Part shown: positions 6,425 through 11,634 of the stretch, one piece after another
Layout: each line of letters begins with the position of its first letter
How positions within the stretch are numbered: the stretch's first letter is position 1
Notes under the pieces: generated by a model
Told to the model about the DNA's origin: nothing
Database searches by the model: none
What the model saw: the letters and a program-made list of their open reading frames with translations, nothing else
Made by a program: the position numbers and the translations under genes
Assembly: GCA_945881775.1 (NCBI GenBank)
Contig: CAMCVE010000001.1
Location: forward strand, 189,836-253,835
Direction: 5' to 3'
DNA from: Bacteriovorax stolpii
GTDB lineage: Bacteria; Bdellovibrionota; UBA2428
Length of the DNA: 64,000 bases

Positions 6425-7942
6425 ATGAACGCTCAGATTCTTATCAACCAAAGCCTGCGCGAGACCCGAGTTGCTCGTATCGAAAACAATGAGCTCGTTG
6501 AGTTCTTTGTCGAACGCAAAAAAGATCGCAGCTTCGTCGGCAATATCTACAAAGGTCGGGTAGCACGCGTGCTTCCCGGAATGCAGGCCGCCTTCGTCGA
6601 GATCACTCTCCCTAAAGCGGGCTTTCTTTACGCAGGCAACGTCTATGACCCCACTCGAGACAGCGTCGACCCCGAGGTTGCAAGCGAGGACCCCGAAGGC
6701 ACCGCTCCCGCGAGCGATGACTCCACAAAGAACATCTCCGAGCTCGTCCGCGAAGGTGAAAGCGTCCTCGTTCAGGTAATTAAGGAACCGCTCGGCTCGA
6801 AGGGTGCGCGGCTCACAGGCTATCTTTCGATTCCAGGCCGCTTCCTCGTTTATCTTCCCAACTCAAAACATCTCGGAGTTTCAAGACGCATCGAGGATCC
6901 CGCGGAACGTGAGCGGCTCAAAAAAATTGTCACCAAGAACCGCCCGACTCAAGGCGGTTTTATCGTGCGCACGGTCGCCGAAGGCGCGGGTGAAAAGCAC
7001 CTTAAAGACGACATGGATTATTTGGTGCGCTCCTGGGGATCCATCAAGAAGGCCGCAGAAAAACAAAAGGGCCCCGGACTGATCTATTCAGAACTTGATC
7101 TCGCAACGCGCATGATACGCGACAGGGTGTCCGAAGACGTCGAGAGGATTCTCGTCAACGATCTGGATCTTTTTAAGCGCGTCACCAAGTTCGTGCAGAA
7201 CTTCCTTCCACGTTTCAAAAAACGTATCGAGATCCATGACAAAAAAACCCCTCTCTTTGATCTCTTTGGCATCGAGACCGAGATCGCTCGATCGCTCGGA
7301 CGCAAGGTTTGGCTGAAGTCGGGCGGCTACATCGTGATCGACGAAACGGAAGCCCTCACAACGGTGGACGTCAACAGCGGAAGATTCGTAGGGACCCGCA
7401 ATTTCGAAGATACGATTCTCCAAACAAATATGGAGGCTGTTAAAGAAATCGCCTATCAGATCCGCCTGCGAAACCTTGGCGGCATTATCGTTCTCGACTT
7501 TATCGATATGGAAAAATCCCAGCACCGGGAACGCATTTACGAGACTCTCATGACCGAACTTCGCAAAGACCCCGTCAAAACGAACGTCTTGCCAATCAGC
7601 GAACTCGGCCTCATTGAAATGACCCGCAAGCGCACGCAGGAAAGCCTCCGCCAGAAGCTGATGAGTCCGTGCTCCTACTGCGATGGCCGCGGCTTCGTAA
7701 AATCAAAGGAGACTCTCGCGTCGCAAATCGTGCGGGACTGCCTGAAGGAAGCGGAGCTTTCGCGCGGACAACAACCTTCGCACCTGGCCATCTACTGCCA
7801 CCCCCAGATCGCGAGCTTTTTTGCAGAGGAAGATCGCGATGCCGTTGACTATCTCGAAAAGGAAACGGGGCTTCGCCTTGTGGTGAAGGCCGATCCCAAT
7901 TTACACCTCGAAGAGTACGAGATTTTCTCGAAGGAATCTTAA
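6425..7942 (+). CDS. rng: Ribonuclease E/G family protein
   Basis: 505 aa; VLPGMQAAFVEI S1 start, DVNSGRF, CSYCDGRGF Zn-link motif; typical RNase E/G layout. Confidence 0.92.
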   Translation: MNAQILINQSLRETRVARIENNELVEFFVERKKDRSFVGNIYKGRVARVLPGMQAAFVEITLPKAGFLYAGNVYDPTRDSVDPEVASEDPEGTAPASDDSTKNISELVREGESVLVQVIKEPLGSKGARLTGYLSIPGRFLVYLPNSKHLGVSRRIEDPAERERLKKIVTKNRPTQGGFIVRTVAEGAGEKHLKDDMDYLVRSWGSIKKAAEKQKGPGLIYSELDLATRMIRDRVSEDVERILVNDLDLFKRVTKFVQNFLPRFKKRIEIHDKKTPLFDLFGIETEIARSLGRKVWLKSGGYIVIDETEALTTVDVNSGRFVGTRNFEDTILQTNMEAVKEIAYQIRLRNLGGIIVLDFIDMEKSQHRERIYETLMTELRKDPVKTNVLPISELGLIEMTRKRTQESLRQKLMSPCSYCDGRGFVKSKETLASQIVRDCLKEAELSRGQQPSHLAIYCHPQIASFFAEEDRDAVDYLEKETGLRLVVKADPNLHLEEYEIFSKES

Positions 7943-8299
7943 GTGATGTTGAGACTCACGAAGCTTTTGTTTCTTGGAGCCTTTGGGATCAGCGTTTCAA
8001 GCGTGAGTGCTTCATCGCCAGAAAGCGAAAGCAGCACGGCTCTCTATGCGGGCCTGGGGCTTCTTGACCTCGAAAAGCTCGAGTACGACCGCCCCGACGA
8101 TCCTGCTCTGAAACTGGAACTGGCGCGGCAGTACTGGTGCCTCGGTGATCGGGGACTCGCAGTGGAACACTGGCGATGGCTTGATCAGAGCCCGGGACCC
8201 GAATCCCAAAAGGCCCTCTCCCTTCTCGCTCTCGTTAGAAAAGAGTCCACAAAGCTGACGAACGATCTTTGCGCGGCTTATCCTCAGAAGACCCTTTAA
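7943..8299 (+). CDS. Small exported hypothetical protein
   Basis: 118 aa ORF with a signal-peptide-like N-terminus, immediately downstream of rng; GTG (7943) or ATG (7946) start. Confidence 0.6.
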   Translation: MMLRLTKLLFLGAFGISVSSVSASSPESESSTALYAGLGLLDLEKLEYDRPDDPALKLELARQYWCLGDRGLAVEHWRWLDQSPGPESQKALSLLALVRKESTKLTNDLCAAYPQKTL

Positions 8300-8478
8300 G
8301 TCGTCAAGACAGCCCTCAAAAAAAGCTTTATTTGGGTGCCCTCAAAGGCTCAAAGCCCGCTTGCAGGCCCCCCCGGCAACGCAGTTCTATTTCGCTACAA
8401 TTTTTTAAAATGAAGCAAAAATAGCTAAAAACAAACAAAAATAGCCGTTTTTATAAAAAACACCAATCCTCACATGAT

Positions 8479-8557
8479 TGTGGATAACTCGAGCAAAACC
8501 CCTCAAATGCCATTTTTTTGGCTTAGGCGTTAGGACCTGTGGATAAGTTGTGGATAA
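8479..8557 (-). promoter_or_regulatory. Cluster of three perfect DnaA boxes (oriC-like or dnaA promoter)
   Basis: TGTGGATAA (reverse complement of TTATCCACA) at 8479-8487, 8538-8546 and 8549-8557. All have the same orientation, follow an A/T-rich stretch (about 8395-8460) and lie just upstream of a dnaA homologue. Confidence 0.8.
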
Positions 8558-8596: not shown

Positions 8597-10153
8597 TTGT
8601 CGCCCTTTCAGCACCCCCCCCGCTTTTGTATTAGTAACGAACTCCTGACCGGGGGGATCTCTTTGGAACTGAATCGCAACAACCTCGCGGAGCCTTCGGC
8701 TCCGTTTGAGGTCCAGCATGGAATTGAGAAAAGCGCGGCTTTTGCCGTGGGCTTTTCGCCACGCGAGCGACTCCTAAAACACCCCGAACTCAAAAAGGTC
8801 TACGACCGCTACCTGGCCCATGCCGAGTTTGATATTGGCGCCCGAGGTCAGCTTCGAGTGAAAGTCCCCACACAGTTTCATGCTCAACGCCTCGAGCAAG
8901 TGCGCAAATGGATCGAAGAATCCCTCAACCAGCGCCTCTCGGAAGTGATCGTTGAAACTCCCAAGCTTGCACGCAACGGAGCCGCTGAAAGCCCCCTCTT
9001 CGACTGGCGCACGCGCAACGGCGCCCAGGCTCCCGAATCGACGAGCGGCCAACAGATCCACATGCCACTTCCACCCGAACGCTCGACCATGGACAACATG
9101 GAAGTCGAGCGCCTTCGCCGTCACAAGGTCCCCACCCCGATCCTTTCGCCCAGCACCGAGGTCGTCTACAAGATGGTCCAAAACTGGACCGAGAACCTCA
9201 ACCGCGGCGCCCGTTCACAGTGTCTGTGGATTTTTGGACAACCCGGCTGCGGCAAAACCTATCTCACTAAGCAGCTGCACGAATGGGTGAACCTCAAAAA
9301 GCGAGTCGTGCATTTGGACGTCGCGGGATTCTTCCAAGAATGGCGCCACGCCCTCAACAACAACGACACAATGAGCTTCATACGCAAGTATCGTCGCGAA
9401 ACAGACGTTCTGATTCTCGAAAACCTCGAAGATCTTCAAGGCAAGTCCGCCACTCAACAAGAGGTGCTCCTGACGATCTCTGCGATGCTCGATCGTGGCG
9501 CGAGCGTGGTGGTTACCACCAGCCCTAACCCGGTCATGCTCAGGGACATTTTGCCCCCCGCACTCTTTAGCCGACTGTTTCAGGGTCTCAGTTTTGAAAT
9601 GCCAGGCCCAGATCGCCCTTTTAAGGAGCGTCTCTGGCGTTCCCTCATCGAACAAAACGGTTTGTCGGCATGGCCCCTAGACATCCGAGTGCTCGATCGC
9701 ATCTTTGGCCTCCCACTCGACACTCCTCGCAAGGTGCACACCTTCTTCATCAACATCATTGGCCGCCTCTCGCTCACCAAACAACTGAGCCTCGCCGACC
9801 TTCAAGAAATCGAATCTCAACACGGACCCCGCAAACGTGCCCTGGAAAAAGAGTGTCTCAATCCTTCGGATCTTATCGAGCGCGTGACCAAGCTCTGTGG
9901 CGTCAGCCTCAGTGCCCTGCAAGGATCTTCGAGGCGCCCAGAGATCACCATGGCTCGCCGTTTTGTTTGCCTTTCACTGAGCCGATTCCTCGGGCTCACC
10001 AACGCCGTCATCTCGCAGTATCTCGAAAAAGACCCTTCGACGATTTCGCACGCGCTGTCGACCATGGAGAGCGACCTCGCCTCCAAGCGACACGTCACCC
10101 AACAATGGAACTGGATTTGTGACGAACTTGGCTTTAGCAGCCAGCTTCGTTAA
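8597..10153 (+). CDS. dnaA: DnaA-family replication initiator / DnaA-like AAA+ protein (divergent)
   Basis: Walker A GQPGCGKTYLTK, Walker B-equivalent DVLILENLEDLQGK, arginine-finger region LFSRLFQGL, C-terminal HTH FLGLTNAVISQYLEKDPSTISHAL, and a domain-I-like N-terminus. The true start may be later (for example ATG 8718). Confidence 0.8.
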   Translation: MSPFQHPPRFCISNELLTGGISLELNRNNLAEPSAPFEVQHGIEKSAAFAVGFSPRERLLKHPELKKVYDRYLAHAEFDIGARGQLRVKVPTQFHAQRLEQVRKWIEESLNQRLSEVIVETPKLARNGAAESPLFDWRTRNGAQAPESTSGQQIHMPLPPERSTMDNMEVERLRRHKVPTPILSPSTEVVYKMVQNWTENLNRGARSQCLWIFGQPGCGKTYLTKQLHEWVNLKKRVVHLDVAGFFQEWRHALNNNDTMSFIRKYRRETDVLILENLEDLQGKSATQQEVLLTISAMLDRGASVVVTTSPNPVMLRDILPPALFSRLFQGLSFEMPGPDRPFKERLWRSLIEQNGLSAWPLDIRVLDRIFGLPLDTPRKVHTFFINIIGRLSLTKQLSLADLQEIESQHGPRKRALEKECLNPSDLIERVTKLCGVSLSALQGSSRRPEITMARRFVCLSLSRFLGLTNAVISQYLEKDPSTISHALSTMESDLASKRHVTQQWNWICDELGFSSQLR

Positions 10154-10314: not shown

Positions 10315-11634
10315 ATGAGTAAACACTTCGTCGTAGACACCAACGTCATACTTTTCGACCCCCAAGCGATCCTCAAGTTCGGCGCCGGCAACGAGGTCGT
10401 GATTCCGATCACGGTCATCGAAGAAGTCGACCGCTTCAAAAAAGACCAGAACGAGAATGGCCGCAACGCCCGCCAATTTTCTCGAATGATCGACAAACTT
10501 CGGCAGAAGGGACACCTCGGCGAAGGCGTCGATCTCGACAACGGAGGCCGACTGAGTGTCGGACTTTCAACCGAGAACACGATCAGCGCCGATCTTTTCG
10601 AAAACACGGCCGACCACCGCATCCTCTCGATCGCCTACTCATTGATGCGTCAGCATGGCCCCGAAGACATCAGTTTCATCACCAAAGATATCAACCTGCG
10701 TATTAAGGCCGACGCGCTCGGAATTCCCGCCGAGGACTATGAGACCTCCGACATCTCCGTCGAAGAGCTTTACTCAGGCTTCGGAGTTTTTGAAGTCCCT
10801 GCTGAGTCGATCACCACGTATTACTCCGAGAAACGTCTCGCGATCGACGACCCCAACATCTACCCCAACCAGTTCATTATTTTGCGTGACCAAACCAATC
10901 CCAGTCACTCCGCCATCGGCCGTTTTGACGTGCGCCAAGGCGCCGTGGTTCCGCTCATCCGCAGCGCCGAAGGCATGTGGGGCCTTCACCCCAAAAACGT
11001 CGAACAAAGTTTCGCACTCGATTTGCTCCTGAACGATGACGTCCAGCTCGTCTCCCTCGTTGGCAAAGCCGGTACTGGTAAAACTCTTCTCGCCCTCGCG
11101 GCGGGACTTCACAAAACTCTCGACGAAGGCAAGTATCAGCGTCTGCTCGTGTCACGCCCGATTTTCCCGATGGGCAAAGACATTGGATTCCTCCCGGGCG
11201 ACCTCGAACAAAAGCTCAATCCCTGGATGCAGCCCGTTTTTGACAACATCGAATTCCTGATGGGCGGCTCAGAGCGCGGCCATCGTCGGAGCGTTGCACG
11301 CAGCGTTCAAGAACTCATCAGCCAAGGCATGCTCAACATCGAACCTCTCACCTATATTCGGGGCCGCTCGATTCCGAACCAATACCTCATTGTCGACGAA
11401 GCTCAGAACCTCACGCCCCACGAGATCAAAACGATCCTCACTCGCGCAGGTGACAACACCAAGATCGTCCTGACGGGCGACTGTTACCAAATCGATAACC
11501 CTTATGTCGACGCAGCCTCAAACGGTCTCGCGCACGTTGTGGAGCGCATGAAGGGCGAAGACATCGCCGGCACGATCACCCTCGTGAAGGGCGAGCGCTC
11601 GCCCTTGGCGGAGCTGGCTTCGAACCTGCTATGA
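10315..11634 (+). CDS. PIN domain-containing PhoH family ATPase
   Basis: N-terminal PIN domain (HFVVDTNVILFDPQAI) plus PhoH ATPase (LVGKAGTGKTLLALAAGL, YLIVDEAQNLTPHEIKTILTRAG). Confidence 0.93.
   Translation: MSKHFVVDTNVILFDPQAILKFGAGNEVVIPITVIEEVDRFKKDQNENGRNARQFSRMIDKLRQKGHLGEGVDLDNGGRLSVGLSTENTISADLFENTADHRILSIAYSLMRQHGPEDISFITKDINLRIKADALGIPAEDYETSDISVEELYSGFGVFEVPAESITTYYSEKRLAIDDPNIYPNQFIILRDQTNPSHSAIGRFDVRQGAVVPLIRSAEGMWGLHPKNVEQSFALDLLLNDDVQLVSLVGKAGTGKTLLALAAGLHKTLDEGKYQRLLVSRPIFPMGKDIGFLPGDLEQKLNPWMQPVFDNIEFLMGGSERGHRRSVARSVQELISQGMLNIEPLTYIRGRSIPNQYLIVDEAQNLTPHEIKTILTRAGDNTKIVLTGDCYQIDNPYVDAASNGLAHVVERMKGEDIAGTITLVKGERSPLAELASNLL

Follow-up and report, generated by a model that had tools for sequence, protein, structure and literature searches.

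The prevailing view is that most bacteria rely on a single DnaA to initiate replication, and in Escherichia coli domain I of this protein contacts the helicase and regulators. Canonical DnaA, as found in E. coli, Bacillus subtilis, and Bdellovibrio bacteriovorus, has a domain III with a Walker A motif, an arginine finger, and a sensor-II arginine, and a C-terminal helix-turn-helix. Paralogues are also on record. Chlamydiales carry two dnaA copies, and in Waddlia the skew minimum coincides with neither (PMC2878342); dnaA is also duplicated in Acidaminococcus (PMC4403523). Two further systems bear on the locus described here: Hda, which has the DnaA-type AAA+ fold without domain IV, and the datA/DARS sites of E. 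coli, which are box clusters away from oriC associated with DNA bending. Below, we compare these systems with a divergent DnaA encoded in a 64,000-nucleotide stretch of DNA (the window). We refer to the window protein as DnaA2 and to the canonical DnaA of the same genome as DnaA1.

A conserved, divergent DnaA

The window belongs to a 2.3-Mb genome (G000), one of four examined from its class (the others are G001, G002, and G003). The open reading frame (ORF) proposed in the first-pass annotation is real, and the Walker A motif GQPGCGKT, the Walker B-equivalent VLILENLEDLQGK, and the domain IV signature EKDPSTISHAL all lie where that annotation had placed them (Table 1). The later TTG fits better as the start codon than the one first reported. 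It is preceded by a run of G residues, as is the matching TTG in G002, and the residues upstream of it are not conserved among the orthologues.

Table 1. Features of the dnaA2 locus, in window coordinates
Feature	Position	Strand	Remarks
RNase E/G gene	6425..7942	+	Conserved upstream neighbor
Three tandem A-tract units of ~10 bp, AAAAATAGCT / AAAAACAAAC / AAAAATAGCC	8417..8446	+	Phased at 10 bp; also conserved before dnaA2 in relatives
DnaA box TTATCCACA	8479..8487	-	
DnaA box TTATCCACA	8538..8546	-	
DnaA box TTATCCACA	8549..8557	-	
dnaA2 ORF as first reported	8597-10153	+	Start TTG 8597
dnaA2 coding sequence, most likely start	8663..10153	+	Start TTG 8663; 496 aa; start region conserved in G001 and G002
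KH-like domain at the N terminus, similar to DnaA domain I (residues 33-98)	8759..8956	+	DnaA_N match below cut-off; Foldseek match to 4tps
AAA+ domain III	9140..9832	+	Bac_DnaA; best PDB matches 8btg, 1l8q, 2z4r
Walker A GQPGCGKT	9236..9259	+	Intact
Walker B VLILEN	9407..9424	+	First D replaced by E in 4/4 orthologues, second by N in 3/4
Arginine finger R304	9572..9574	+	Equivalent of E. coli R285; kept
Sensor-II arginine R356	9728..9730	+	Equivalent of E. coli R334; kept
Altered DnaA signature EKDPSTISH	10025..10051	+	H434 to P, T435 to S; domain IV helix-turn-helix
PIN-PhoH gene	10315..11634	+	Conserved downstream neighbor

Each of the four genomes of the class encodes a window-type DnaA2 protein (42 to 45% identity), always in the gene order RodZ-like, PilT, RNase G, dnaA2, PhoH, and PilZ. 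Intact orthologues with the same neighbors in four genera rule out a pseudogene or an assembly artefact. Between RNase G and dnaA2 (window 7943-8299) lies a 118-aa ORF that has a relative in G002 (51.8 bits); no relative was found in G001 or G003, and the ORF matched no Pfam family.

By profile matches and predicted fold, DnaA2 is a DnaA-type AAA+ plus helix-turn-helix protein. It matches Pfam Bac_DnaA with 58.6 bits (cut-off, 23) and Bac_DnaA_C with 27.9 bits (cut-off, 31.5), and the G003 orthologue exceeds the latter cut-off (37.7 bits). In an AlphaFold2 model built from four sequences (mean pLDDT, 69.5), helices at residues 401 to 489 form domain IV. The best Foldseek matches of this model in the PDB are the DnaA structures given in Table 1, and Hda structures are also among the matches.

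The residues reported at first pass held up when set against those of 21 canonical DnaAs from the same phylum. The Walker A motif, the arginine finger, and the sensor-II arginine are indeed intact, with R304 and R356 invariant across the four window-type proteins; the sensor-II column was taken from a HMMER alignment instead of MAFFT, whose placement was two residues off for the window clade. The change of the Walker B pair is likewise systematic, with D,D in 21/21 canonical proteins versus E (4/4) followed by N (three) or D (one) in the window-type proteins. At the H434 position, all 21 canonical proteins have H, and the window-type proteins have P (three) or A (one); the T435 position is S in 4/4 and the R399 position is R in three and K in one. 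As the same columns read D,D and H in every canonical protein, these differences do not stem from misplaced motifs, an error that the first-pass annotation had allowed for. Two losses had been overlooked. The sensor-I Asp269, present in 21/21 canonical DnaAs, is absent from all four window-type proteins, and so is the box-VII Arg281, which is likewise R in all 21.

In E. coli, the substitutions R399A and T435M impair box binding, and functional contacts between DnaA molecules require R281 (PMC5742627). The recognition-helix residues of DnaA2 are altered nearly identically in all four members. Changed DNA recognition and a role as a regulator, both of which the first-pass annotation had suggested, are plausible from these residues, and DnaA2 probably fails to read TTATCCACA in the way that DnaA1 does.

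The pattern of kept and lost residues also bears on the idea that DnaA2 is a negative regulator, poisoning DnaA1 oligomers or taking them apart, much as Hda or a dominant-negative DnaA would. A subunit that has lost sensor I and box VII and kept its arginine finger would fit one that completes the ATPase site of its neighbor, and the Hda structures among the fold matches point the same way. However, DnaA2 has the domain IV that Hda lacks, and the coupling of its gene to DnaA boxes (see below) fits activation too. We regard this reading as improbable.

A canonical DnaA at the chromosomal origin

A whole-genome search for another dnaA found canonical dnaA1 within an rpmH-dnaA-dnaN cluster in both G000 and G001, in agreement with the earlier suggestion that the window gene is a second paralogue. 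In G000, dnaA1 is split between contigs C6 and C16, which share an exact overlap of 149 bp, with rpmH upstream and dnaN downstream; in the protein, Walker B reads MDD and the signature includes HHTT. This split gene rules out DnaA2 as the sole DnaA of the genome. We did not find dnaA1 in two less complete assemblies of the class.

To locate the origin, we computed GC skew on stretches of the genomes. In G000, the cumulative skew falls steadily across the 256-kb dnaA2 contig and turns within ∼15 kb of the C6/C16 junction. The minimum lies within the dnaA1-dnaN region in G001 (at 74,294) and at the start of dnaN in G028, and none of these three genomes shows a skew switch at dnaA2. The window locus is thereby ruled out as the chromosomal oriC, and dnaA2 is far from it. 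Between dnaA1 and dnaN, both G000 and G001 have perfect boxes and AT-rich stretches such as those described for oriC of B. bacteriovorus (PMC5124646). The rpmH-dnaA-dnaN setting, the skew minimum, and the adjoining box-rich intergenic region together mark DnaA1 as the likely chromosomal, oriC-linked initiator. The alternative offered at first pass, that the window gene encodes a lineage-specific initiator in place of the usual DnaA, is not supported, as it is dnaA1-dnaN, rather than this gene, that sits at the skew minimum. The present pair resembles the paired DnaAs of Chlamydiales, as these have been described, in that there are two dnaA genes per genome, but here one of them sits at the skew minimum. 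In f3, another family of the phylum, the dnaA1-dnaN regions (L040 ~9390-9410; L038) have CTACTACTA stretches near tandem boxes, like the DnaA-trio arrangement of B. subtilis.

Relatives of DnaA2

A single-protein scan of named genomes gave no relative, and an alignment scan gave only the three other class members. A second DnaA is, in addition, present in families f3 and f16 of the phylum, where 12 genomes match its profile with 709 to 843 bits; all other matches listed are at or below 311 bits. In a phylogenetic tree, a branch with a support of 96/94 sets the window clade and the f3/f16 second DnaAs apart from all 21 canonical DnaAs. The branch of the window clade is very long (>2.4 substitutions per site), so long-branch attraction to the f3 clade is possible. 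Shared residue states and a shared upstream element lend the grouping independent support. Both clades have lost the sensor-I Asp and R281 (no R in 10/10 f3/f16-clade proteins) and kept R285, both have an altered T435 (S in 4 window-type and A in 10 f3/f16 proteins), and both have phased A-tracts with boxes before the gene. Unlike DnaA2, the f3/f16 second DnaAs have the Walker B DD, H434, a clear domain I (49 to 60 bits), and another gene neighborhood. A further divergent DnaA-like ORF of 500 aa occurs at G032:C3:45341 (L046:7165-8667); its matches are only weak, to DnaA1 (69 bits) and to DnaA2 (44 bits) alike.

Phased A-tracts and DnaA boxes upstream of dnaA2

The first-pass annotation had noted that the boxes upstream of dnaA2 match the standard consensus; three of them do so perfectly. 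The other six box matches in the window have one mismatch each, and the 256 kb of contig C1 hold no further perfect box. Perfect boxes number 19 in the whole genome, compared to 8 for a reversed control pattern. That an altered reader should stand behind standard boxes had seemed paradoxical, but the paradox dissolves because the boxes match what DnaA1, which keeps H434, T435, and H439, should read. Elsewhere in G000, a perfect intergenic box (G000:C7:92517; L154:1518) stands before a gene that, read by eye, resembles the large subunit of an ATP-cone ribonucleotide reductase. Two others (G000:C12:18615 and 18626; L151:6616, 6627), between an HDOD-like-looking gene and a gene for a secreted protein, are 11 bp apart, the spacing of the 8538/8549 pair.

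Just 5′ of the boxes lies the array of A-tracts. Across 13 dnaA2 loci from the two clades (one locus, G059, is without a clear array), autocorrelation gave a period of 10 bp (z = 8.9 at 10 bp, with negative values at 5 and 15 bp). The order in these loci is A-tracts and then boxes, some of them mismatched, and in f3 the boxes often form a dyad, TTATCCACA-NNN-TGTGGATAA, with a 3-bp spacer. The 10-bp phasing would imply intrinsically bent DNA. A DnaA-trio was considered and rejected, since the period is 10 bp and not a 3-bp pattern. A promoter scan upstream of dnaA2 found no sigma-70-like promoter, and Tandem Repeats Finder and Rfam returned nothing at the element. The gene neighborhoods differ between the two clades, which suggests that the element travels with dnaA2.

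The composition of this region raises the question of whether it is itself a second, perhaps conditional, origin served by DnaA2, with an A-rich unwinding element and boxes. The adjacency of the array and the box cluster at 13 loci in two clades is what such an origin might look like. Nevertheless, we consider it highly unlikely: the skew has its minimum at or near dnaA1-dnaN in G000, G001, and G028, with no switch at dnaA2; boxes and an AT-rich stretch are also present at dnaA1-dnaN (G000 and G001); and the array lacks the 3-bp phasing of a DnaA-trio.

The least probable of the readings that we weighed holds that the region is mainly a titration or reactivation site for DnaA1, akin to datA/DARS, with dnaA2 only a neighbor. 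The mid-replichore position of the cluster and the f3 dyad would suit such a site, and bent DNA aids these sites in E. coli, where DARS2 is bent by IHF or Fis (PMC5742627). Here, bending would come from A-tracts instead, and the putative element stands before a dnaA paralogue. That it does so directly, despite different surroundings in the two clades, argues for control of dnaA2.

The array could also be a target of DnaA2 itself. In that case DnaA2, though derived from a DnaA, would regulate transcription at target sites of its own, possibly the 10-mers of the A-tract array before its gene, and would have no replication role. This would account for the near-identical alteration of the recognition helix in all four members, for the conservation of the array before dnaA2, and for the distance of the gene from oriC. 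Yet DnaA2 has retained an AAA+ domain with both the Walker A motif and the arginine finger, as well as the domain-I-like fold, and the f3 DnaA2 has the same array although its recognition helix is nearly canonical. We therefore think a purely transcriptional role unlikely.

Domain I and the two DnaAs

The DnaA1 proteins of G000 and G001 are only ∼365 to 370 aa long and start ∼25 to 45 residues before domain III. DnaA_N did not match either of them, and rpmH is too close upstream in both genomes to leave room for a hidden domain I. The absence of domain I from DnaA1, as seen in these two genomes, is therefore well supported by sequence. The sole DnaA_N match in the window's genome, at window 8792-8947, falls inside the DnaA2 N terminus, below the cut-off (E value, 0.06; 14.4 bits). 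A separate model of this N-terminal domain (pLDDT, 76.7) has the topology helix-strand-strand-helix-strand. Its most probable Foldseek match is DnaA domain I (4tps; probability, 0.98), at E values of ∼0.1, above 0.05, and ribosomal S3 KH domains match too. As sequence proof, hhalign failed: the comparison with the f3 domain I was weak (probability, 4.7%). We conclude that DnaA2 likely carries a domain I. That this domain is only remotely recognizable sets DnaA2 apart from canonical DnaA, as does the lack of linkage to dnaN and oriC.

A sharing of labor between the two DnaAs would not be general, as both DnaAs of f3 keep domain I; the DnaA1 of f3/f16 differs in this from that of the window class. 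DciA is present in the genome, so helicase loading may not need a DnaA domain I.

Proposed role and significance

The reading that we prefer, and that in our judgment has about an even chance of being right, is that DnaA2, an old, fast-evolving paralogue, works together with DnaA1 as an accessory initiator or regulator and that its gene is controlled by DnaA1 via the upstream boxes. DnaA1 would bind these boxes and set the expression of dnaA2. DnaA2 would bind nucleotide through its retained Walker A motif, with abnormal cycling owing to the changes in Walker B, sensor I, and box VII, and would join or modulate DnaA1 assemblies via the retained arginine finger. It may also supply the domain-I surface missing from DnaA1, in which case helicase recruitment or the timing of initiation would depend on both proteins. 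A stronger version is less probable: that of a split initiator in which DnaA1 provides ATP switching and box reading without domain I, and DnaA2, whose AAA+/helix-turn-helix body is degenerate, provides the domain-I fold. Initiation would then need hetero-assembly, with DnaA2 made under DnaA1 control at the phased A-tract/DnaA-box element.

In the open-licence literature, we found neither the pairing of a main DnaA that lacks domain I with a divergent one that retains it nor a phased A-tract/DnaA-box element described. DnaA paralogues as such are already known from Chlamydiales; the partition between the DnaAs and the control region look new. A lineage that has long kept a systematically altered second DnaA beside a main DnaA without domain I offers a natural experiment on the separable parts of DnaA. 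The origin recognition complex (ORC) of eukaryotes is heteromeric, and this lineage makes it testable whether bacterial initiators can turn heteromeric as well.
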